From a bacterium (GTDB lineage Bacteria; Patescibacteriota; Minisyncoccia; Phycocordibacterales; Phycocordibacteraceae), in contig JAHFML010000003.1 of the NCBI GenBank assembly GCA_023269085.1, forward strand, positions 1 through 52,862: DNA of 52,862 nt, written 5' to 3'. The translations under genes and the position numbers were made by a program. Below, in pieces: positions 5,414 through 47,550 of this stretch. The notes under the pieces were generated by a model. It was not told the origin of the DNA, searched no databases, and saw only the letters and a program-made list of their open reading frames with translations. Positions within the stretch are counted from its first letter, which is position 1; each line of letters opens with the position of its first letter.

Positions 5414-5752
5414 TTAGGCGACTGCCAGATTGGCAACGCCGAATTTGTATATCTCAGAAGAAAGCGGTGGGAGAACTCCTCCACGGAGGCTCTTGTGTGC
5501 GGTCGCCCAACGAGCCTCATCTTCTTTGGCAGGTTTCTGATTCAAGACAGAGTTTACCTGCGTTGGACGGAATCTTTTGGAAAGTTTCTTCGCTGATTCA
5601 AGATATCCGAGCACGGCCTCCTGCAATTCAGATTCAACAACGCGCGGGTCGTCGCCGACAATCGTAATCTTGAATTCAAGAGCGGTGCCAATCCACTTCT
5701 TCGCATCCTTGAAGACCATCCAGCGGAATTGACCTTGTGAGGGAGTGTTCAT
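5414..5752 (-). CDS. HicB-like antitoxin / hypothetical protein
   Basis: WIGTALEFKITIVGDDPRVVESELQEAVLGYLESAK ... VLNQ; start chosen at MNTPSQGQ. Confidence 0.5.
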   Translation of the reverse strand: MNTPSQGQFRWMVFKDAKKWIGTALEFKITIVGDDPRVVESELQEAVLGYLESAKKLSKRFRPTQVNSVLNQKPAKEDEARWATAHKSLRGGVLPPLSSEIYKFGVANLAVA

Positions 5753-6000
5753 AAGGAGACTATACCGTGATTGAAGGGGAAAAACAAAAAAGCGCAACCG
5801 AATACGGTTGCGCTTTGCCACGATACCTAATCATTGTGGATATTCCTGTGCGAAAAAGTATGTGCTACTATAAGCTCATCCCATGAATGAGCAGAAAGAA
5901 ATAGAATCGTTGCGGTATTCGACACTATCAACATTAAACCCAGTCTTTTCAGAGCAAAAGATAGCATCTTGCTTAAACGAAGCGGCAACGGTGGCAGCAC

Positions 6001-7037: not shown

Positions 7038-8021
7038 ATGACGACGAAGAAACCAAAAGAGATGGTCATCTATCAGGCGAAGAACGGCGCTATCGAGTTC
7101 CGCGGCGACTTGTCGCGCGAGACGCTCTGGGCGACACAGGCGCAGATTGCCGACGCTTTTGAAGTTGACGTTCGAACCGTGAACGAGCACGTCAAGAATA
7201 TCTTGAAAACGAATGAGCTCGCAGAGACGGCAACTGTCCGGAATTTCCGGATAGTTCAAACAGAAGGGAAACGCGAGATTGAGCGCGACTTGAAGCACTA
7301 CAACCTCGACATGATCCTCTCGGTCGGATACCGCGTGAACAGCAAGAAGGCAACCACATTCCGCCAGTGGGCGACGAAAACTTTGCGTGAGCACATCACG
7401 CGCGGCTACACCCTCAACCGGAAGCGCATCGCGCGCAACTATGACGCGTTCATGACGGCGGTCGCCGACATTCAGGCGCTCCTGCCTGCGCAGGTGGTGC
7501 TCGACCCGAAGGAGGTGCTCGAGATCGTGAAGGAATTCGCGAGCACCTGGGTCTCGCTCGACGCCTACGACAAAGAGTCGCTCACGATCATCGGCTCGAC
7601 CAAGCGAGCGGTGAAGCTCACGGGCGCAGAACTCTCGGCGGCTATCGAGAACTTCCGCGGTGAGCTCATGGTGAGAGGCGAGGCGACCGAGATATTTGCC
7701 CAAGAGCGAAGCGCGGGAAGTATCGAAGGCATTGTCGGGAATGTCATGCAGGCCTTCGGCGGGAAGCAGGTGTATCCGACGCTCGAAGAGAAGGCCGCGC
7801 ACTTGCTCTACTTCATGGTGAAGAATCACCCCTTCACCGACGGAAACAAGCGCTCGGGCGCGTTCGCTTTCGTCTGGTTCTTGCGCAAGACGAAGAGCAA
7901 GGGGAGCCGCAATGTGAACGCCGCGGCGCTCACCGCGCTCACGCTCCTCATCGCCGAGAGCGACCCGCACAAGAAGGAGCAGATGGTCGCACTCGTGACG
8001 CAGATGCTCGCGCGGCCGTAA
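7038..8021 (+). CDS. RhuM-like protein with C-terminal Fic/Doc-type domain
   Basis: N-term EFRGDLSRETLWATQAQIADAFEVDVRTVNEHVKNI (RhuM); C-term HPFTDGNKRSGAFAF (Fic/Doc motif). Confidence 0.85.
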   Translation: MTTKKPKEMVIYQAKNGAIEFRGDLSRETLWATQAQIADAFEVDVRTVNEHVKNILKTNELAETATVRNFRIVQTEGKREIERDLKHYNLDMILSVGYRVNSKKATTFRQWATKTLREHITRGYTLNRKRIARNYDAFMTAVADIQALLPAQVVLDPKEVLEIVKEFASTWVSLDAYDKESLTIIGSTKRAVKLTGAELSAAIENFRGELMVRGEATEIFAQERSAGSIEGIVGNVMQAFGGKQVYPTLEEKAAHLLYFMVKNHPFTDGNKRSGAFAFVWFLRKTKSKGSRNVNAAALTALTLLIAESDPHKKEQMVALVTQMLARP

Positions 8022-13224: not shown

Positions 13225-13265
13225 CTACTCTAAAGGCACAATCTTTATAAACATACCCACACACA

Positions 13266-13880
13266 ATGAAAGACCTCATCCGTTCTACAATCAAACTAAC
13301 AGCAGCATCCTCTCTAACCCTCCTAGCTTTCTATGCTATCAATGCTCAAGCACAATCAGCTTGGACTCCTCCCTCGTCAACACCACCAGCAGGCAATGTA
13401 GCAGGACCTCTCACAGTCTCTTCTACAGGTCAGAGCAAAGCAGGCAACCTTATGTTGAATACAGATGGTGCTCTTGCTAATGGTCTTATTGTTGCCGCTG
13501 GCAAGGTTGGTATAGGGACGCTGACTCCTACACAAGCATTGGATGTGAGTGGCAAGATCAGAATGGCAACACAGACCGCCACTGCAGATGCCGCGGATAT
13601 CGTCGCGACGAAGGGGTATGTGGACGGGAAGGTCCCAAATGGAGTTTGCCCAAGCGGTCAGTTTGTGACAGGAATTTCTAATGGAATTATTCAATGTGCT
13701 CCTTCTGGCGGAAACCAAATCGTAGGAGGGTGTGACCAAGCGACTATATTCGGATCGAACTGTTGGGGTGGTGCTGATGGTGGCAGATATGCGAATTGTC
13801 CAACAGGTTCAACTCCTCATATTATGGGCGGTAGTAGTAATGATGGCGCTATATTTACTTATTTCTATTGTACGCGATAG
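13266..13880 (+). CDS. Secreted protein, conserved-N/variable-C family, copy 1
   Basis: Signal peptide; SAWTPPSSTPPAGNVAGPLTVSSTGQSKAGNLMLNTDGALANGLIV...VGIGTLTP shared with three other loci. Confidence 0.8.
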   Translation: MKDLIRSTIKLTAASSLTLLAFYAINAQAQSAWTPPSSTPPAGNVAGPLTVSSTGQSKAGNLMLNTDGALANGLIVAAGKVGIGTLTPTQALDVSGKIRMATQTATADAADIVATKGYVDGKVPNGVCPSGQFVTGISNGIIQCAPSGGNQIVGGCDQATIFGSNCWGGADGGRYANCPTGSTPHIMGGSSNDGAIFTYFYCTR

Positions 13881-29820: not shown

Positions 29821-30546
29821 ATGAAAGAACTAACTCGTTCAACGCTCGTCACCATCGTCGCCTCTTCTCTCACCCTCCTCGCCTTCTACGCGATCAACGC
29901 TTCTGCACAATCAGCCTGGACTCCAGCTCCAGCTAACGCTCCCTCAGGCAACGTGGCAGGCCCCCTCACCACGGGCGCAACCGGTCAGAGCAAAGCCGGC
30001 AATCTCATGCTCAACACCGACGGCACCCTCGCCAACGGCCTCATCGTCGCGAATGGGAATGTGGGGATTGGGACAATAAACCCTGGTAGCAAGCTTGAGG
30101 TTGTTGATGGAACCCTTGAGGTTGTTGATGGAACCATCAGAAGTGATTTCGTTAATAATGCGCGTGGGAATACATTGACTCTTAACGGAGGGAAATCAAA
30201 TTTCCAAGTGTGGCATAATAGTGAGAAGTTTGTTAATTTGCTGAATACATCAGGGGATGGAAATGGTGCTGGATTTAAATTCCTTGATTACGACGGTAGT
30301 AGCGGCGGTGCATTGAACGTCGACACTTTGCCAGCGAGTATGGTCATAACGAATGCTGGTAAAGTCGGCATTGGGACGCCGAATCCAGCGGCTATGCTTG
30401 AGGTGAATGGAGAGTTCCGTCTCGGCGCCAATGCTAAAGCAGGAACGGTCTGTAACCTCGAAGGGAAAGTCTCTTTCGATTACAACTTGCATGCTCCCGT
30501 ATACTGCAACAATATCGGCGTGTGGACCGCTCTAGCCCATAATTAA
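29821..30546 (+). CDS. Secreted protein, conserved-N/variable-C family, copy 2
   Basis: Near-identical 5' module to copies 3 and 4; VGIGTxNPxxxLEVxG repeats. Confidence 0.85.
   Translation: MKELTRSTLVTIVASSLTLLAFYAINASAQSAWTPAPANAPSGNVAGPLTTGATGQSKAGNLMLNTDGTLANGLIVANGNVGIGTINPGSKLEVVDGTLEVVDGTIRSDFVNNARGNTLTLNGGKSNFQVWHNSEKFVNLLNTSGDGNGAGFKFLDYDGSSGGALNVDTLPASMVITNAGKVGIGTPNPAAMLEVNGEFRLGANAKAGTVCNLEGKVSFDYNLHAPVYCNNIGVWTALAHN
30094..30135 (+). repeat. Perfect tandem repeat 2 x 21 bp (cttgaggttgttgatggaacc)
   Basis: Encodes LEVVDGT LEVVDGT within copy 2. Confidence 0.95.
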
Positions 30547-30956: not shown

Positions 30957-31646
30957 ATGAAAGAACTAACTCGTTCAACGCTCGTCACCATCGTCGCCTC
31001 TTCTCTCACCCTCCTCGCCTTCTACGCGATCAACGCACAAGCACAATCAGCCTGGACTCCAGCTCCAGCTAACGCTCCCTCAGGCAACGTGGCAGGCCCC
31101 CTCACCACGGGCGCAACCGGTCAGAGCAAAGCCGGCAACCTTATGCTCAACACCGATGGCACCCTCGCCAACGGTCTCATCGTTGCGAATGGGAATGTGG
31201 GGATTGGGACGCTTACTCCTAACACAACTAAAGGCACTAGCGGCTACCTTGACGCCAAAGACGTCTATCTCCGTGACGCCGGGAAGTGGGCGAGTGAGGT
31301 TGGGGGGGGCGGAAGTAGTGGTGCCGCGAAGGTATGGGCAAATTTTGAAGGCACTAATTGTAGTGGAGCCAACGGATGCATAATACGAGCACAGTATGGT
31401 GTGTCTAAGATTCTAAAGACTGGATCTGGAATCTACAGAGTCTATTTTACTACTCCGATGCCAGACACAAATTATGTAACAATTGGTGTTAACAACGGGC
31501 CAGGATGTCAGTGGTCTATTGGTGGTGTGGCTGCAGATTATTCTAATAAGACAGTGGATTCAGTAACTATTAGGACTCCTAATTATGATGCGTGTACTTT
31601 CAACACTATAGACCGATACGATGTTGAGTTCGTTATATTTAGATAG
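30957..31646 (+). CDS. Secreted protein, conserved-N/variable-C family, copy 3
   Basis: 5' module near-identical to copy 2 at constant 1136-bp offset; divergent 3' part. Confidence 0.85.
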   Translation: MKELTRSTLVTIVASSLTLLAFYAINAQAQSAWTPAPANAPSGNVAGPLTTGATGQSKAGNLMLNTDGTLANGLIVANGNVGIGTLTPNTTKGTSGYLDAKDVYLRDAGKWASEVGGGGSSGAAKVWANFEGTNCSGANGCIIRAQYGVSKILKTGSGIYRVYFTTPMPDTNYVTIGVNNGPGCQWSIGGVAADYSNKTVDSVTIRTPNYDACTFNTIDRYDVEFVIFR

Positions 31647-36514: not shown

Positions 36515-36606
36515 GGAGACGTGGCTGAGTGGTCGAAAGCACCTCACTGCTAACGAGGCAGGGACGTTAAACTCCCTCGTGGGTTCAAATCCCACCGTCT
36601 CCGCCA
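36515..36606 (+). tRNA. tRNA-Ser(GCT), CCA encoded
   Basis: GGAGACG/CGTCTCC acceptor, anticodon loop CTGCTAA, long variable arm, GGTTCAAATCC T-arm, GCCA. Confidence 0.95.
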
Positions 36607-38100
36607 AAATTCAAAATCGGAATTGGAAGCCGAAATGGGGTCGCGCCGTAGGCGCGACACAAACGCATTCCCGCCAAAAATTCCTGAATCCAAAAGGTTT
36701 TTCCACGCTCCGCGTGGTTCAAAAAAGACGGTTCGATCCTTAATTTGAAAGTTCGAACCGACTTTTTGAAGTAAACGGATTTTTTCTCCGTTTACTTCCT
36801 CGTTTGCCAATTCCACATTGTATTTCAAAAACTTTTCGGTAAGTTCGAACCGATTATTCGCTTTTTGCTCAAAAGCCGATAATTTCTCTTTGAGAAGCTG
36901 TTTTTGATTAACTAGCGTGCTTTTAGCGCCCCGATATTCCTCTAGCGAAAGTGCGCTCTCTAAATAAGCATTCATCAGCTTCTCAATTTTAGAATCCAAA
37001 AGAGAAATTTCGGCTTTTGTGTTGTCTGCAAAAAGCGTAGACGACTGGATTTCTGATTGCCGATCTTTTGCGTTTTCGGCAATCATCCATTTAGCCCAAT
37101 CGTCTGGCAAAGAAACTTTTTTGATTTCCTTATTGATTTCGGAAGTGATGATTTCCTCGCGAGTATATTTTTGCGAACAAGGATTTTTCCGTTTGGTACA
37201 TCGCAAATAATTATGACCTTTCTGTGTCTCGGTAGTGATGAAGCAACCACACTCTCCGCAACGGAAAAATCCTCTGTACAAAAATGGTTTCAGTCCGCGA
37301 GATTTCGGCTTACTTTTTCGCATCATCACTTCCTGAACGGAATCAAAAAGTTTCTTTGAAATAATCGGTTCGTGCTTTCCCTCAAAAATCTCTCCGTTGT
37401 ACAACATCAATCCTGTATAGATAGGATTTTTGAGAAGTTTTTGATAATTCGACACCGCAAGTTCCTTTCCGCTTTTTCGCTTCAATCCAAGCCCATTAAA
37501 TTTGTCGCGGAGTTCCCGCAAAGTGAAGTTTCCGGTGGAATATGCCTCAAATGTTTTGCGAATAAGTGGAGCAAGTTCGGGGTCTGGCACAATACGCTTG
37601 TTTTTGTTCACATAGCCCAATGGCGACATTTGAGGCCATATACCTTCCTTCACTTTGTTTCTATGTCCACGCTTAATATTCTCCGACAAATTGTCCACAT
37701 AATACTTGGATTGCGAAAAGGCGATTGAGAGCATGAATTTGCCTTGCGGTGTCGGATCAAACCAAAAAGTTGGGAATTTCATTTCAGAAATTACACCAGT
37801 ATCAACGAGGTAGATGATCTTTCCTCCATCTACCGAGTTGCGAGCAAGTCTATCGGGATGCCACGCCAAAATACCAGTGGCTTCACCTTTTTCCATTCGC
37901 TCTATCATTTCATTAAACACGGGACGACCTGGTATTTTGGCGGTCTGCTTCTCGACAAAGACATCAACCACATCAAGCTGTTCTTTCAACGCTAACTCTT
38001 TTAATTCACTTAGTTGGTCAGCAATACTGCGGACTTGTCTGTCTTTGTCATCCGTAGACTTGCGAGTATATATGAAAAACTTTTTGGTTTGATTATTCAT
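36550..38100 (-). CDS. large serine recombinase (resolvase + recombinase + zinc ribbon)
   Basis: FIYTRKSTDDKDRQVRSIADQL, GILAWHPDRLARN, PLIRKTFEAYSTGNFTLRELRDKFN, FRCGECGCFITTE; C-terminus reads through the repeat into antisense tRNA-Ser. Confidence 0.92.
   Translation of the reverse strand: MNNQTKKFFIYTRKSTDDKDRQVRSIADQLSELKELALKEQLDVVDVFVEKQTAKIPGRPVFNEMIERMEKGEATGILAWHPDRLARNSVDGGKIIYLVDTGVISEMKFPTFWFDPTPQGKFMLSIAFSQSKYYVDNLSENIKRGHRNKVKEGIWPQMSPLGYVNKNKRIVPDPELAPLIRKTFEAYSTGNFTLRELRDKFNGLGLKRKSGKELAVSNYQKLLKNPIYTGLMLYNGEIFEGKHEPIISKKLFDSVQEVMMRKSKPKSRGLKPFLYRGFFRCGECGCFITTETQKGHNYLRCTKRKNPCSQKYTREEIITSEINKEIKKVSLPDDWAKWMIAENAKDRQSEIQSSTLFADNTKAEISLLDSKIEKLMNAYLESALSLEEYRGAKSTLVNQKQLLKEKLSAFEQKANNRFELTEKFLKYNVELANEEVNGEKIRLLQKVGSNFQIKDRTVFFEPRGAWKNLLDSGIFGGNAFVSRLRRDPISASNSDFEFWRRRWDLNPRGSLTSLPR
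36601..36721. repeat. Inverted repeat A, left arm (121 bp)
   Basis: Matches reverse complement of 38122-38242; starts at the tRNA 3' CCGCCA. Confidence 0.9.
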
Positions 38101-38121
38101 AGAATTGTATTGGCAAACGAG

Positions 38122-38242
38122 TGAACCACGCGGAGCGTGGAAAAACCTTTTGGATTCAGGAATTTTTGGCGGGAATGCGTTTGTGTCGCGCCTACGGCGC
38201 GACCCCATTTCGGCTTCCAATTCCGATTTTGAATTTTGGCGG
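38122..38242. repeat. Inverted repeat A, right arm
   Basis: Reverse complement of 36601-36721. Confidence 0.9.
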
Positions 38243-38441
38243 TGTGTATTGGACAAAGTTCGAATGTATTTCGGACAAAATCCGCAGGATTTTGACTAAT
38301 AATCTTTGCGCCTCGCACGCTCCCTTCGGTCGCAATCCCAAAACCAAAAATTTCCTTACTTTTCCTTCTTCGGCGGGGGGTGTGGGGGGAGCCGGCAAAA
38401 AATGGAAAGGAAAATTTTTGGTTTTGGTTCCGACGCTTCAT
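38236..38441. repeat. Inverted repeat B, left arm (about 206 bp)
   Basis: Matches reverse complement of about 44106-44312 with few differences. Confidence 0.9.
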
Positions 38442-38533
38442 AATCCAATTATTCACACTTGTATTATAACTTATCATTGAGTCAAAACACAAGAGAATGC
38501 TATAATATCCGTGTTGATAAGTTTTCATACAAT

Positions 38534-38743
38534 ATGGCAAAATCCACAGCACAAAAATTTGGCGAAAATATGAAAAAAATTCGCCTTGAAAAAAGCATGT
38601 CGCAAGGCGATATTTGCCGAGAGTTAGGTTTAGATAGAGCGTATATAAGCAATGTTGAGAACGGCAAACAAAACCTTACAATCAGTACAATGGAAAAGGT
38701 CGCCAAAGCGTTGGGAGTTAGCATAGATCAACTTTTAAAATAG
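38534..38743 (+). CDS. XRE-family HTH regulator (R-M controller-like)
   Basis: KFGENMKKIRLEKSMSQGDICRELGLDRAYISNVENGKQNLTISTMEKVAKALGV; extended -10 TGCTATAAT upstream. Confidence 0.88.
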   Translation: MAKSTAQKFGENMKKIRLEKSMSQGDICRELGLDRAYISNVENGKQNLTISTMEKVAKALGVSIDQLLK

Positions 38744-38745
38744 TT

Positions 38746-40419
38746 ATGAGCAAGCTTAAAGACATGCCAAATGTAGACCGCCCGCGAGAAAAATTTCTTG
38801 CGAAAGGTGCCGATGCTTTAACCAAAAGCGAACTTTTGGCGATTTTACTGGGAAGTGGAATAAAAGGCACAAATGTTAAAGAACTTTCGCAAAAAATTCT
38901 GCGAAAATTTGGGAATGGCTTTTTGCATGCAACCGTTGACGAGTTAGTACAAATTCCAGGAATCGGAAAGGCGAAAGCGTTGCAAATTGTTTCTGCGCTC
39001 GCCTTGGCTCGCAGAATACAGGAGGAGCAAAACAGTCCCGATAATCTTATTTTGTCCGCCAAAGACGCATTGTCATTGGTTTCGGACTTGAAAGACGCAA
39101 AAAGAGAAAACCTCGTCTGTTTGTACTTGAATGCACGAAATGCGTTACTTAAAAAAGAAATTGTTTCAGTCGGCACATTGGACAAGAGTTTGATACATCC
39201 GCGAGAAATTTTTGCACCAGGTCTTGAAGCACACGCAGCAGGGGTCATTCTTGTTCACAATCATCCGTCTGGGGATCCAAGCCCGAGCGAACAAGACAAA
39301 CAAGTTGCAAAAAGAATTATTGATGCAGGACAGTTAATGGGTATAAATGTTATAGATTTTCTTATCATCGCAAAAAACGGCTCCCATAGCGTTTTGGGAG
39401 AATTACAAAATACGGAACTAACTAATACGGAATATGTTGCAGAAGGTATTCAATCTTCACTTTTTGATTTAATGGTAGACGCAAACCAAGCATATTTTTA
39501 CGGCGTAAATAATAAGGTTCCAGAAAACAAAGGCAAAAAGGACGCTTTGAAGTTTATAGATCTTTTTGCTGGAATCGGTGGCTTTCATGTCGCCTTTCAT
39601 AATGCTGGCAGTGAGTGTGTTTTTGTCTCCGAATGGGACGAACCTGCACAACAAACCTATAAACATAACTTTTTCAAGCTATCGCCAGAGGTATTTCGCT
39701 CGGGAAATTTTGTCGGCGATATAACGAAAATCAAACCGAATGATATACCCGATTTTGATATTTTGACTGGAGGTTTTCCTTGTCAGCCATTCTCGCAAGC
39801 TGGCTTTAAAAAAGGATTTAACGAAACTCGTGGAACTTTATTTTTCGATATTGTTAAAATTTTAAAAGAAAAAAAGCCCCGTGCTTTTTTTCTGGAAAAT
39901 GTCCGCGGTTTATATAATCATGATAATGGTAAGACGTTTGAAACCATAAAAAGAGTCATAACGGAAGAACTGGGATATTCTTTCTTCCAAAAAATTGTAA
40001 AAGCTTCTGATTTTGGCTTACCGCAACACAGACCCCGCTTGTTTATGGTTGGATTCAGAGATAAATCCATTAACTTCAAATTTCCCGAACCTGTCAAAGA
40101 ACTCAAATATACAATGTCGGATATATTCGGCGGAAAATGCGATAAAGAGGTCGGCTTCACATTGCGTGTTGGTGGACGAGGGAGCAAGATAACTGACAGA
40201 AGAAATTGGGACGCATATCGAGTAAACGGAAAAATCGTACAACTTGGACCAAAGGAAGGGTTAAAAATGCAAGGGTTCCCAGATTGGTTTGAATTTCCGC
40301 AAGGCATTTCCAGCGTCCAGTCCATGAAGCAATTGGGTAATTCCGTCGCTATTCCCGCAATACAGGCTGTTGCTGAAAAAATAATTGAAACATTGAATGA
40401 ATATGATCAAAGAAAATAA
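38746..40419 (+). CDS. RadC (JAB/MPN) domain fused to DNA cytosine-5 methyltransferase
   Basis: N-term LTKSELLAILLGSGIKG...ILVHNHPSGDPSPSEQD (RadC); C-term FIDLFAGIGGFHVAF, GGFPCQPFSQAG, FFLENVRGL, QHRPRLFMVG, QLGNSVAIP (Dcm motifs); one uninterrupted 557-aa frame. Confidence 0.92.
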   Translation: MSKLKDMPNVDRPREKFLAKGADALTKSELLAILLGSGIKGTNVKELSQKILRKFGNGFLHATVDELVQIPGIGKAKALQIVSALALARRIQEEQNSPDNLILSAKDALSLVSDLKDAKRENLVCLYLNARNALLKKEIVSVGTLDKSLIHPREIFAPGLEAHAAGVILVHNHPSGDPSPSEQDKQVAKRIIDAGQLMGINVIDFLIIAKNGSHSVLGELQNTELTNTEYVAEGIQSSLFDLMVDANQAYFYGVNNKVPENKGKKDALKFIDLFAGIGGFHVAFHNAGSECVFVSEWDEPAQQTYKHNFFKLSPEVFRSGNFVGDITKIKPNDIPDFDILTGGFPCQPFSQAGFKKGFNETRGTLFFDIVKILKEKKPRAFFLENVRGLYNHDNGKTFETIKRVITEELGYSFFQKIVKASDFGLPQHRPRLFMVGFRDKSINFKFPEPVKELKYTMSDIFGGKCDKEVGFTLRVGGRGSKITDRRNWDAYRVNGKIVQLGPKEGLKMQGFPDWFEFPQGISSVQSMKQLGNSVAIPAIQAVAEKIIETLNEYDQRK

Positions 40420-41491
40420 CAAAGGAGAATGGTCGGAATTTTACGCTTTCCTTAAAATTCTTGAGGATAGAAAACTTTTTGCAGCGGACAAAAATCTTGA
40501 AATAATAGATGGAAAGTTTTTCGTATTTCACAAAATATTCAGAGACGAGAAAGACGAACCCGTTAAAATTTATGATCTTTCACAATCGGACACGCAAGTA
40601 ATAATCACCGACGAAGCAGGAAGAACCATTAAAGAGTTTGACTCCTCCGTTTTGAAAGAAAAGACATTGAAAATTTTTGAACGAATCAGAGATGAAAAAA
40701 GTCGATCATTCACAATTCCAGAAGCGTGCGAGCTCATGGAGGAATTGCTTTGCACAAAAGTAAAAGCAAGTAGTAGTGAAAAAGCTGATCTTGTTGCGAT
40801 TATCTATGATCGGATTTCTAAAACAGCACCGATGCTCGGATTCTCCATAAAATCTATGATCGGAGGAGCATCCACATTGCTTAATCCTGGTAAAACTACA
40901 AACTTTGTTTTTGAAATAAAAGGTTTTACAGGCAATGTGGATGAAGTGAATGCCATAGAAACAAATGCTCAAATTCGTGATCGTGTTAAAAAAATATCGG
41001 AACAAAACGGAGTTTTTGATTTTGTAGGGGTGTCCAATGAACAGTTTTCCTCGAACATGAAAATGATTGATACGGCATTGCCAGAGTTTATCGCATCAAT
41101 GCTTTTGGATTTTTTCTCAAACAGTCGGAAAACAGTTGCGGATCTGGCAGGTGCTCTTTCGGAAGATGCAAAAATAACCACAAAGTACGGACTATCTCTC
41201 ACAAACTACGAATATAAAATCAAAAACTTTTTGGACGCGGTCGCGCTTGGTATGGTGCCAAGCAAACCCTGGGACGGTTTTGCTAAAGCACATGGTGGGT
41301 ATATTGTCGTAAAAGAAAATGGCGATGTGGTTTGTTATCACTTATACAATCGTGATGAATTTCGAGCATATTTATACGAAAACACGAAGTTTGACGCGGC
41401 AAGCACAACTCGTTATGAATACGGCAAGCTATACGAGAAAAATGGAAAGCTGTTTTTTAACCTCAACCTGCAAATTAGATTTTTGAAATAG
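40397..41491 (+). CDS. HpaII-family type II restriction endonuclease (probable)
   Basis: NKGEWSEFYAFLKILEDRKLFAADKNLE start and YEYGKLYEKNGKLFFNLNLQIRF end typical of the HpaII family; overlaps the MTase gene. Confidence 0.75.
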   Translation: MNMIKENNKGEWSEFYAFLKILEDRKLFAADKNLEIIDGKFFVFHKIFRDEKDEPVKIYDLSQSDTQVIITDEAGRTIKEFDSSVLKEKTLKIFERIRDEKSRSFTIPEACELMEELLCTKVKASSSEKADLVAIIYDRISKTAPMLGFSIKSMIGGASTLLNPGKTTNFVFEIKGFTGNVDEVNAIETNAQIRDRVKKISEQNGVFDFVGVSNEQFSSNMKMIDTALPEFIASMLLDFFSNSRKTVADLAGALSEDAKITTKYGLSLTNYEYKIKNFLDAVALGMVPSKPWDGFAKAHGGYIVVKENGDVVCYHLYNRDEFRAYLYENTKFDAASTTRYEYGKLYEKNGKLFFNLNLQIRFLK

Positions 41492-41507: not shown

Positions 41508-42926
41508 ATGAAAAATAAATTTATAAAAAAGGATATTTCGATAAAAGGCTTGTCTCTTTGGGATGAAAATGCACGTTTCCCAGATAAATATTTTAGTAAG
41601 ACAGAGAAGGAGCTTATTGGTTATTTTGTATCCAAAAAGGATTTTAAGATAAATGAATTTTCTGAAGAAGTTGTAAAGGAGTTTGATTTGCCGCAACTAG
41701 AAAAATTGGTTGTATATGAGTTTAATGGCAAAAAAATAGTTTTGGAGGGCAACCGTCGTCTTGCGGTTTATAAACTTTTAAATGATCCAAAATTAACTGA
41801 CGATACGAAACTGCAAGGCAAGCTTACTGGTTTAAGATCGAAGATAAAAATTGACGATAATTTTAAGCTAGAGTGTTTGATTTCTAAAGACAAGGAGCAG
41901 GGTCTGCGGTATATAAACAGGAAACACTTGCGAGGCAATAACGAAGTTTCTTGGGGTGATAATGAGAGAGCTCATCATAATGCACGTGGAGGGAATGCAA
42001 ATCAAAAAGAACTCCTGAAAGTTGCAATTACTAAAGTCATCAAAGATCTTGAACTTCCAGAACAATTGAAGGAACAAGTATTGGGACATGGTTTTGTAAC
42101 TACCCTTTGGAGGTTAGTTGAACAAAAGCCAGCGTGGTCTGCCTTTGGATTTTCACTTGATAAAAGCGGAGAACTAAAAATCACAGACAAAGATTTTAAG
42201 GACAAGCTAAAAGTTATTATTTTTGATGTTCTGCAAAAGGGTAAGTATAACGGAAAGCTATTTTCGCGTTTAAATGTAAAAGACATCGAAGGTTATTTGG
42301 GAGGAATTACAAAAGAAGATTATAAAAGAGTTTCTGATGACATAAAGAAACAAACCAAGACAGATCTTTTTGGCAAGGAATCAACTATCATTGCTTCATC
42401 AGGAAACAATGGAAACCGAAGTAATCCAAAATCATCACTTCGTGATTATTTAATTCCAAAAACGTGTGTATTTCAAATTCACGAAACAAAGATCAATAAT
42501 ATTTACTGCGAACTTAAAAATGACCTTTTGATTGATGACTCGAAAAAGGCTGTGCCAAATGCCGTCGGGGTATTATTTAGGGTTTTCTTAGAAATATCCT
42601 TGGATCACTATGCAAAAATGAATAGTCATGGATTTAAAAAGACAGATACAATTAATCAAAAAATTTCTTGGGTCGTCAAAAGTTTAGAGGGCAAGAAATA
42701 TGATAAAAAGAAGTTTAACAATATAAACAAAGTTGGTTCTGCAACAGGCACAAAAAGTTATTTATCAATAGAAAATTTCCATGAATATGTTCATTCTGTA
42801 ACAACACAGCCAACATCGAGTGAATTGAAGGGAAAATGGGACAACCTGCAAGGATTTTTTGAAATCCTATGGGGAGATTTGAATAAAAAAGCAAAATCTA
42901 AAAAACAATATGCAAAAAAGAAATAG
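41508..42926 (+). CDS. ParB/Srx-like (EGNRR) N-terminal domain protein with HEPN-like C-terminus
   Basis: LWDENARFPDKYF...KLVVYEFNGKKIVLEGNRRLAVYKLL; C-term NFHEYVHSVTTQPTSSELKGKWDNLQGFFEILW. Confidence 0.65.
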   Translation: MKNKFIKKDISIKGLSLWDENARFPDKYFSKTEKELIGYFVSKKDFKINEFSEEVVKEFDLPQLEKLVVYEFNGKKIVLEGNRRLAVYKLLNDPKLTDDTKLQGKLTGLRSKIKIDDNFKLECLISKDKEQGLRYINRKHLRGNNEVSWGDNERAHHNARGGNANQKELLKVAITKVIKDLELPEQLKEQVLGHGFVTTLWRLVEQKPAWSAFGFSLDKSGELKITDKDFKDKLKVIIFDVLQKGKYNGKLFSRLNVKDIEGYLGGITKEDYKRVSDDIKKQTKTDLFGKESTIIASSGNNGNRSNPKSSLRDYLIPKTCVFQIHETKINNIYCELKNDLLIDDSKKAVPNAVGVLFRVFLEISLDHYAKMNSHGFKKTDTINQKISWVVKSLEGKKYDKKKFNNINKVGSATGTKSYLSIENFHEYVHSVTTQPTSSELKGKWDNLQGFFEILWGDLNKKAKSKKQYAKKK

Positions 42927-43776
42927 AAAAAAAATATCGGGTTTCTCTAGCCCCTTGCGTTATCCAGGCGGGAAAACTCGACTTGCCAATAAACTACTTG
43001 AGGCAATGGAGAAAAACTTTGACCAAAAAGAAAAAGTGGTTTTGGTGGAGCCATATGCTGGTGGAGCGGGGGCTTCACTTGCTCTGCTTTTTGCCAAAAA
43101 AGTTGAAAGAATTGTTATCAATGATCTTGATAAGGCTATTTTTACTTTCTGGAAAATAGCTGTGTCTGATACTGACTATTTAATAAATAAAATAAAACGA
43201 ACAGAAGTTACTATTGAGGAATGGAGAAGGCAAAAAGCAATATACATTTCAACAAAAGACGAACGAAAACTTGCATTTGCGACTCTGTTTTTAAATAGAA
43301 CAAACCGTTCTGGGATTATGAGAGGTGGACCAATAGGCGGATTTGATCAATCTGGAACATGGAAAGTGAATGCTCGATTTACTAAAAAAACAATCATTGA
43401 TCGTCTAGAAAAAGTAAAAGAATTCCGTAATAAAATTGAGGTAAGTAATCTGGACGGAGTAGCATTGTTAAAAAGATTGGAAAAACGCAATAGTGAGAAT
43501 CAATATTTTATATTTCTTGACCCGCCATATTTTCAAAAAGGACAATCTTTATACCTAAACCATTACAACAATGAGGATCATGAAAATCTGTCAGAATTCT
43601 TGAGAAAATCATCTTTCAAAAAATGGGTTATGACTTATGATGATGTGCCGTATATTAAAAACTTGTATGCAACAATGCGTACTAAGGGGTTTGCAATTCA
43701 GCATAATGCATACGAATCCAAAATAGGCAGAGAGGTTATGATTTTTCCAAAAGGGTTTACCCCTGTGAATATTTAA
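42910..43776 (+). CDS. D12-class (Dam-like) DNA N6-adenine methyltransferase
   Basis: PLRYPGGKTRLANKLL, VEPYAGGAGASLALL, FIFLDPPYFQKG. Confidence 0.93.
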   Translation: MQKRNRKKISGFSSPLRYPGGKTRLANKLLEAMEKNFDQKEKVVLVEPYAGGAGASLALLFAKKVERIVINDLDKAIFTFWKIAVSDTDYLINKIKRTEVTIEEWRRQKAIYISTKDERKLAFATLFLNRTNRSGIMRGGPIGGFDQSGTWKVNARFTKKTIIDRLEKVKEFRNKIEVSNLDGVALLKRLEKRNSENQYFIFLDPPYFQKGQSLYLNHYNNEDHENLSEFLRKSSFKKWVMTYDDVPYIKNLYATMRTKGFAIQHNAYESKIGREVMIFPKGFTPVNI

Positions 43777-44105: not shown

Positions 44106-44312
44106 ATGAAGCGTCGGAACCAAAACCAAAAATTTTCCCTTCCATTTTTTGCCGGCTCCCCCCACACCCCCCGCCGAAGAAGGAAAAGTAAGGAAATTTT
44201 TGGTTTTGGGATTGCGACCGAAGGGAGCGTGCGAGGCGCAAAGATTATTAGTCAAAATCCTGCGGATTTTGTCCGAAATACATTCGAACTTTGTCCAATA
44301 CACACCGCCAAT
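44106..44312. repeat. Inverted repeat B, right arm
   Basis: Reverse complement of 38236-38441. Confidence 0.9.
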
Positions 44313-44318
44313 ATATTT

Positions 44319-46653: not shown

Positions 46654-47550
46654 ATGCGCACGCTCCTCACCTCAACCCTCAAGATGTTCGTCGCCTCTTC
46701 TCTCACCCTCCTCGCCTTCTACGCGATCAACGCTTCTGCACAATCAGCCTGGACTCCAGCTCCAGCTAACGCTCCCTCAGGCAACGTGGCAGGCCCCCTC
46801 ACCACGGGCGCAACCGGTCAGAGCAAAGCCGGCAATCTCATGCTCAACACCGACGGCACCCTCGCCAACGGCCTCATCGTCGCGAATGGGAATGTGGGGA
46901 TTGGGGTGTTGAACCCGGATTATCTACTTGATATTAACGGTACCTTTGCGGCTAAGTATAATCTGGACATGAAATCAGGGATTTCTCAGATCGCATGGAA
47001 CAGAGACTCTCGTACCGGATCTATTTATGATTCAGCTCACCACGCATGGCAGCTTGGGCCAACGTCGGTGTCCAATGATGGGTTCAGCATAAAACACTTC
47101 AGCCCATCTGGTACTTACTCGGGAGGAGTCATATTTTCAGTAGATGACAACGTCGGTGTCGGGACACAAACACCGAACGTCTCGAAGGGGGCTGGCGGGT
47201 ATGTCGACGCCAAAGACGTCTATCTCCGTGACGCCGGGAAGTGGGCGAGTCAGGTTGGGGGAGGGAGTGGGAGTATCGTAGCAGGATGCACATCAAAAAG
47301 TCCGACGGGGATAGAGTCAACTTGGATAGATCCTAGTATTTATAATTTTTACAATTGTTTTGGAGGCGCATCTGGGAAGGTGAAGTCAAATGGTGGATGG
47401 GGGGGTGCTCCTCTTGTGACAGCGTCTATGACGTGTCCTACGGGTTCAACAGTTCAAGCGACAGGTCTCTTCCCTATAAGTTATCAAGCAGATGGTTATT
47501 CGAATCCTAGCAGCGGAGCTCTAACGGCGTTTCTCTGTCTGAAGAGTTAA
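46654..47550 (+). CDS. Secreted protein, conserved-N/variable-C family, copy 4
   Basis: 46690-46905 appears identical to 29857-30072 (copy 2). Confidence 0.85.
   Translation: MRTLLTSTLKMFVASSLTLLAFYAINASAQSAWTPAPANAPSGNVAGPLTTGATGQSKAGNLMLNTDGTLANGLIVANGNVGIGVLNPDYLLDINGTFAAKYNLDMKSGISQIAWNRDSRTGSIYDSAHHAWQLGPTSVSNDGFSIKHFSPSGTYSGGVIFSVDDNVGVGTQTPNVSKGAGGYVDAKDVYLRDAGKWASQVGGGSGSIVAGCTSKSPTGIESTWIDPSIYNFYNCFGGASGKVKSNGGWGGAPLVTASMTCPTGSTVQATGLFPISYQADGYSNPSSGALTAFLCLKS

Follow-up and report, generated by a model that had tools for sequence, protein, structure and literature searches.

A RadC-cytosine methyltransferase fusion in an HpaII-like restriction-modification operon and a wider association of RadC with restriction systems in Patescibacteria

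A single gene in the window, the 52,862-nucleotide stretch of Patescibacteria DNA analyzed here, encodes a RadC family protein joined to a C5-cytosine methyltransferase. This fusion is a true gene and not an artifact. It is best explained as the modification enzyme of a type II HpaII-like restriction-modification (RM) system, to which the N-terminal RadC and a flexible linker would be an accessory. The parts of the fusion belong to known families, and the wider association of RadC with RM systems is the more novel claim. In the open-licence literature, we found no report of a RadC-methyltransferase fusion or of a RadC-RM linkage.

Results

The fusion occupies a single unbroken ATG-to-stop frame of 557 amino acids (positions 38746 to 40419, forward strand). 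The RadC part (amino acids 1 to 216; 38746 to 39393, forward strand) consists of the helical/HhH UPF0758_N part (Pfam, amino acids 5 to 78, 9.5e-24; 83.7 bits against a curated cut-off of 27.1) and the RadC JAB domain (amino acids 104 to 216, 5.3e-36; 123.6 bits against 22.1). A linker (amino acids 217 to 267; 39394 to 39546, forward strand) leads into an M.HpaII-like C5-cytosine methyltransferase part (39547 to 40416, forward strand), which is matched by DNA_methylase (PF00145) from amino acid 268 (4.5e-80) and adjoins an RE_HpaII gene. The NCBIfam profiles RadC family protein and dcm each scored over their cut-offs, and TIGR00608 scored 208.2 against a cut-off of 133.85. The frame contains the C5 catalytic motifs FAGIGG, GFPCQPFSQAG, ENVRG, and LGNSV, and the nearest solved sequence to the methyltransferase part is M.HhaI. 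The AlphaFold2 model, which is of modest confidence (14 sequences; mean pLDDT 75, pTM 0.56), has two separate folded domains and a linker predicted to be disordered, with pLDDT below 50 at amino acids 221 to 265. Foldseek searches with this model returned methyltransferases only, among the matches listed.

The initial annotation had proposed a one-frame RadC-methyltransferase fusion, naming sequencing error and stop/start reinitiation between the domains as threats to this reading and a domain-architecture search and structure prediction as checks. The proposal is borne out by the 557-amino-acid frame, its Pfam and NCBIfam domains, and homologous fusions in 10 further genomes. All of the sequence motifs it cited are present, the JAMM motif reading HNH-x7-S-x2-D. 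The full-length architecture recurs in other genomes at 80 to 82% identity, and the linker has no internal start codon that is conserved across the relatives. Both halves of the fusion are under purifying selection, with mostly silent substitutions; in RadC, amino-acid-changing distances were 0.06 to 0.23, while silent distances were large or saturated (for example, dN 0.076 and dS 1.28). The relatives, the selection, and the lack of a conserved internal start together rule out an assembly error or reinitiation between the domains. Within the host genome (710,721 bases), no second RadC and no other C5 methyltransferase were detected, so the fusion is without obvious backup.

The surrounding genes form an operon-like run on the forward strand. 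It opens with the gene for a small Cro/C1-type HTH protein of 69 amino acids (38534 to 38743; HTH_3), a candidate controller of the RM operon, which ends two bases before the fusion. A closely similar gene precedes the fusions at loci L042 and L072. Reading the sequence ahead of the HTH gene, we found a TATAAT-like box flanked by the halves of a perfect 9-bp inverted repeat, AACTTATCA...TGATAAGTT (38468 to 38523, forward strand), a candidate operator and promoter; at L042 and L072 the right half-site and the TATAAT box are conserved and the left half-site is imperfect. Overlapping the end of the fusion is the gene for an HpaII-family restriction endonuclease of 364 amino acids (40397 to 41491), matched by PF09561 over profile positions 1 to 359 (2.1e-108). 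The run closes with other defense cargo of the same island, an adjacent PD-Lambda-5 pair (41508 to 43776) made up of a component A homologue (41508 to 42926; PADLOC, 3.4e-66) and component B, a D12 adenine methyltransferase (42910 to 43776; PADLOC, 6.8e-102; PF02086). The system resembles HpaII-type II RM systems in that the methyltransferase gene adjoins and overlaps the endonuclease gene and the whole RE_HpaII profile is matched; a methyltransferase and RE_HpaII are likewise adjacent in a plasmid record. It differs from them in the N-terminal RadC and linker. Judged from the RE_HpaII family of the endonuclease alone, a CCGG specificity would be expected.

The mobile island location proposed in the initial annotation also held, since the fusion rides an island that is integrated at a tRNA-Ser and carries a serine recombinase. 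The tRNA-Ser (GCT; 36515 to 36606, forward strand; ARAGORN) has the core CTCCGCCA in its 3' end. The large serine recombinase (36550 to 38256, reverse strand; Resolvase, Recombinase, and Zn_ribbon_recom) probably has its true start downstream of the listed TTG. The same gene is found at L042, where the same recombinase island sits at a different tRNA-Ser (TGA), again with the core CTCCGCCA at the tRNA end. Inverted repeat arm A, adjoining the tRNA (36601 to 36721, forward strand), is 121 nt long and 100% complementary to 38122 to 38242, and arm B', at the island's right end (44106 to 44314, reverse strand), is 209 nt long and 99% complementary to 38233 to 38441. Repeat comparison located the inverted internal junction, in which the A' and B arms are joined at the core, at 38122 to 38441 (reverse strand). 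In both the window and L042, the joined ends of the island recur in inverted form between recombinase and cargo. Arm identity is 99 to 100% within a genome, whereas between the window and L042 it is 89% for the A arm and about 50% (gapped) for the B arm; arms that are near-identical within genomes and diverged between them suggest ongoing exchange between arms. The repeats are nested, with recombinase and cargo each bracketed by inverted arms (counterparts at L042 lie at 5664 to 5784, 7185 to 7574, and 13235 to 13512), and the cargo-arm spacing is 5664 and 5660 bases in the two genomes despite different cargo. The window also contains three paralogues (29821 to 30546, 30957 to 31646, and 46654 to 47550) with a near-identical N-terminal part, containing FYAINAxAQSAWTPAPANAPSGNVAGPLTTGATGQSKAGNLMLNTDG, and differing C-terminal parts.

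Including that of the window, there are 11 distinct RadC-methyltransferase fusions in 11 genomes (L204, from the same genome as L002, was left out). Their methyltransferases are of four kinds, unrelated or distantly related to one another. The C5 type of the window, paired with R.HpaII, accounts for five fusions: the window, L042, L002, L070, and L071, the last cut by a contig end. The L002 fusion is full length and 80% identical to that of the window, with R.HpaII and Vsr downstream. A second C5 type, at L205, adjoins an NgoFVII-type protein and Vsr, and a third is found at L206. The remaining four (L043, L044, L072, and L207) have a D12 adenine methyltransferase and adjoining AlwI-type endonucleases. 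Candidate endonucleases follow the fusions at L205 (7912 to 9030), where only an NgoFVII C-terminal DNA-binding domain was matched, and at L206 (1856 to 3091; 411 amino acids), where no Pfam match was convincing.

The RadC halves of the fusions form one clade (100/100 support). Since RadC is monophyletic and the methyltransferases are of four kinds, RadC and the linker behave as a portable module. At L002 and L206 the RadCs are 86% identical and the C5 enzymes differ, the likeness stopping right after QASLFDLLVD; either the methyltransferase was swapped at the linker or one RadC was captured repeatedly. The module can also be lost. The methyltransferase of L003 is 90% identical to that of L002 and is its sister in the tree (100/99), nested inside the fusion clade, but it is without RadC, which it has apparently lost. 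It still adjoins its endonuclease, so RadC is probably unneeded for methylation as such.

The distribution of the fusion is patchy, as expected of mobile cargo: 2 of 92 genomes in the genus of the window carry it. None was found outside the phylum. The full architecture had no match in plasmid and phage records, no relative was found in viral contigs, and none of the longest RadC frames at the 80 viral RadC loci kept is fused to a methyltransferase. A contig scan, whose reach was limited to close relatives, yielded one other full-length fusion, and the one genome searched in the class of G022 yielded no additional one. Arthrobacter pAciIRM, at first a two-part match, proved to be a double C5 enzyme without RadC.

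The active-site signature of RadC is retained. The JAMM motif E...HxH-x7-S-x2-D is found in the window as E138, H171, H173, S181, and D184; its residues are invariant in an alignment of eight fusions and intact in all 11. The D-H pair that follows the motif is D-F in all 11 fusions, a His-to-Phe change. The solo RadCs scored at this pair have D-H (56 proteins) or H-H (one), and none of those scored has the Phe variant; six solos were not scored. We read the D-F fusions as a derived RadC subgroup that still belongs to the RadC family, because the curated profiles that define the family match it. In comparison with RadC/UPF0758 proteins (NF000642, TIGR00608; structure 2QLC), the fusion has complete N-terminal and JAB parts and an intact JAMM motif, but it is joined to a methyltransferase and has Phe for the conserved His.

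The fusion RadC descends from a lineage whose solo members precede methyltransferase genes of restriction systems. A methyltransferase was found within 4.5 kb at 24 of the 33 solo RadC loci nearest the fusions (contig ends truncate several of the nine loci that lack one), compared with 2 of 30 loci of the other lineage (Fisher, 8e-8) and 0 of 20 random windows (Fisher, 6e-8); these rates apply to relatives of the window, from which the survey genomes were drawn, and the two RadC sets were formed by similarity, a tree of 74 RadCs placing second-set locus L232 among the first set. The first 13 loci were the source of some of the methyltransferase queries; among the 20 loci fetched later, the count is still 13 of 20. 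In 23 of the 24 loci, the RadC gene comes first and on the same strand as the methyltransferase gene, within 34 bases of it in seven; the fusion preserves this order. These partners are type I HsdM, type III-like Mod, and IIG-like enzymes. RadC is best explained as an accessory of restriction systems. The initial annotation had taken the fusion to link RadC to DNA modification, and the RadC-RM linkage in the phylum backs that part; it had also supposed that RadC acts on invading DNA or supports island establishment, and we found nothing that supports either.

The linker is poorly conserved save for a block, Y-[VI]-[AS]-[DEN]-G-x-Q-x-x-L-F, that lies between the two folded domains in the stretch with pLDDT below 50. 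In the window, this block contains Q236-S-S-L-F240 (39451 to 39465, forward strand), a putative beta-clamp-binding motif. Its Q, L, and F never vary in 11 of 11 fusions, which share ancestry, so that the copies are not independent. The published beta-clamp consensus peptide is Q-L-x-L-F (PMC4549789), and the C-terminal region of the host DnaE carries QDSLFG. Similar peptides occur in methyltransferases. The L003 enzyme begins MSYQLSLLLQQ, on the clamp consensus, the L050 N terminus is MQTNLFDVL, and a methyltransferase of like kind on a phage contig carries LQDSLFNDF. At L084 (791 to 1981), a methyltransferase near a solo RadC begins with the clamp-type peptide MQYTLF.

Of 20 solo C5 enzymes, 3 have the strict motif in their N-terminal extension, where shuffling predicts 0.13, and the motif lies within 45 amino acids of either end in 2 of 26 RM methyltransferases near RadC, against 0 of 311 control proteins; the samples are small, and the first examples were already known when the strict pattern was set. 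The count for a loose pattern was weaker (p 0.007), and the chance of the motif occurring in one shuffled linker is about 1%. In the phylum, the N-terminal extension is slight or missing in most solo M.HpaII-like enzymes, and a tether is therefore not a general need. The linker motif points to a possible replication-coupled methylation.

Discussion

Our preferred reading, which we hold tentatively and at a little short of an even chance, is one of tethering: the fusion would keep the methyltransferase on the replication clamp, and new DNA would be marked ahead of the endonuclease. Docking onto the clamp (DnaN) would be through the linker peptide Q-x-[ST]-L-F, while the HhH DNA-binding region and the intact zinc-type active site of RadC may hold or process fork DNA. 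The methyltransferase would thereby be placed on freshly made DNA and could mark unmethylated sites ahead of cutting by the HpaII-type endonuclease. The outcome would be reduced self-restriction for a mobile island in a cell without another C5 methyltransferase. Like beta-clamp clients with Q-L-x-L-F peptides (PMC4549789), the fusion has a short, putatively clamp-binding peptide in a segment predicted to be accessible and flexible. This reading is weakened by L003, which suggests that RadC is dispensable, and by the loss in the fusions of a His conserved in solo RadCs.

The main rival casts RadC as a nucleic-acid-processing metalloenzyme mending the self-inflicted damage of restriction, such as nicks, breaks, and forks stalled at unmethylated sites. 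The fusion would then bring RadC to sites that are hemimethylated or cut, with clamp binding secondary or absent. The intact JAMM residues of all fusions agree with this, as does the position of RadC at the head of type I, type III, and IIG-like RM operons and not solely beside C5 enzymes. One published view takes RadC as a nucleic-acid-processing domain whose role is disputed (PMC5512222); however, nuclease activity of RadC is not reported in the literature found, and a structural comparison of a RadC-like domain gave metalloproteases and not nucleases (PMC11981726). The His-to-Phe change may also alter the active site, and L003 and other HpaII systems manage without RadC. We consider damage processing unlikely, though the leading alternative.

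Less probable still is that RadC aids establishment of the island in a new host by protecting or processing incoming single-stranded DNA while the fusion methylates the entering island. RadC is among the domains of the polyvalent proteins of conjugative elements (PMC5512222) and occurs with ArdB in moron modules of defense islands (PMC12458937), and the gene in the window does travel on a recombinase island seen at a second tRNA-Ser. On the other hand, no conjugation or single-strand gene was recognized among the island genes scanned, and the association tracks RM methyltransferases of many kinds, with no such pattern in the second RadC lineage, which is unlinked to RM.

That RadC is a JAMM-type peptidase in control of the RM system, one that might cleave the endonuclease or free the methyltransferase from the fusion, seems very improbable. 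The HxH-x7-S-x2-D motif is intact and a RadC-like domain is protease-like in structure, resembling JAMM proteases (PMC11981726), but RadC has been argued to lack the ubiquitin-tail groove (PMC5512222), and the linker has no conserved cleavage site apart from the Q-x-x-L-F block. A functionless chance fusion or a sequencing or assembly artifact, conceivable for one gene seen alone, has a likelihood close to nil, being refuted by ten further fusions, by the presence of four types of methyltransferase, by purifying selection, and by the constancy of the linker motif.

RadC is already known as a module of DNA-acting multidomain proteins, including RadC-like DinG and polyvalent proteins; the partners there are helicases, HhH, and ArdC-N, and the sections available to us do not mention methyltransferases (PMC11981726, PMC5512222). 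Clamp tethering by a bacterial RM methyltransferase was not found in the open-licence literature. In eukaryotes, DNMT1 is coupled to PCNA. If the linker of the fusion binds the clamp, it would be a bacterial counterpart of replication-coupled maintenance methylation. It would also explain how, in a very small genome, the methylation of a mobile RM system outpaces the cognate endonuclease.

RadC is a widespread protein. The repair role behind its name is disputed, and there is no agreement on its function. The fusion and the ordered operon linkage give RadC a concrete partner and an assay. A broader and rather doubtful extension is that RadC in Patescibacteria may be a general partner of RM methyltransferases, whatever their type. 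It would be a metal-dependent factor at the fork, with its gene at the head of the operon, and would tie modification to replication; the fusions would be its hard-wired form, bearing a clamp plug. If true, this would give RadC its first defined biological role.
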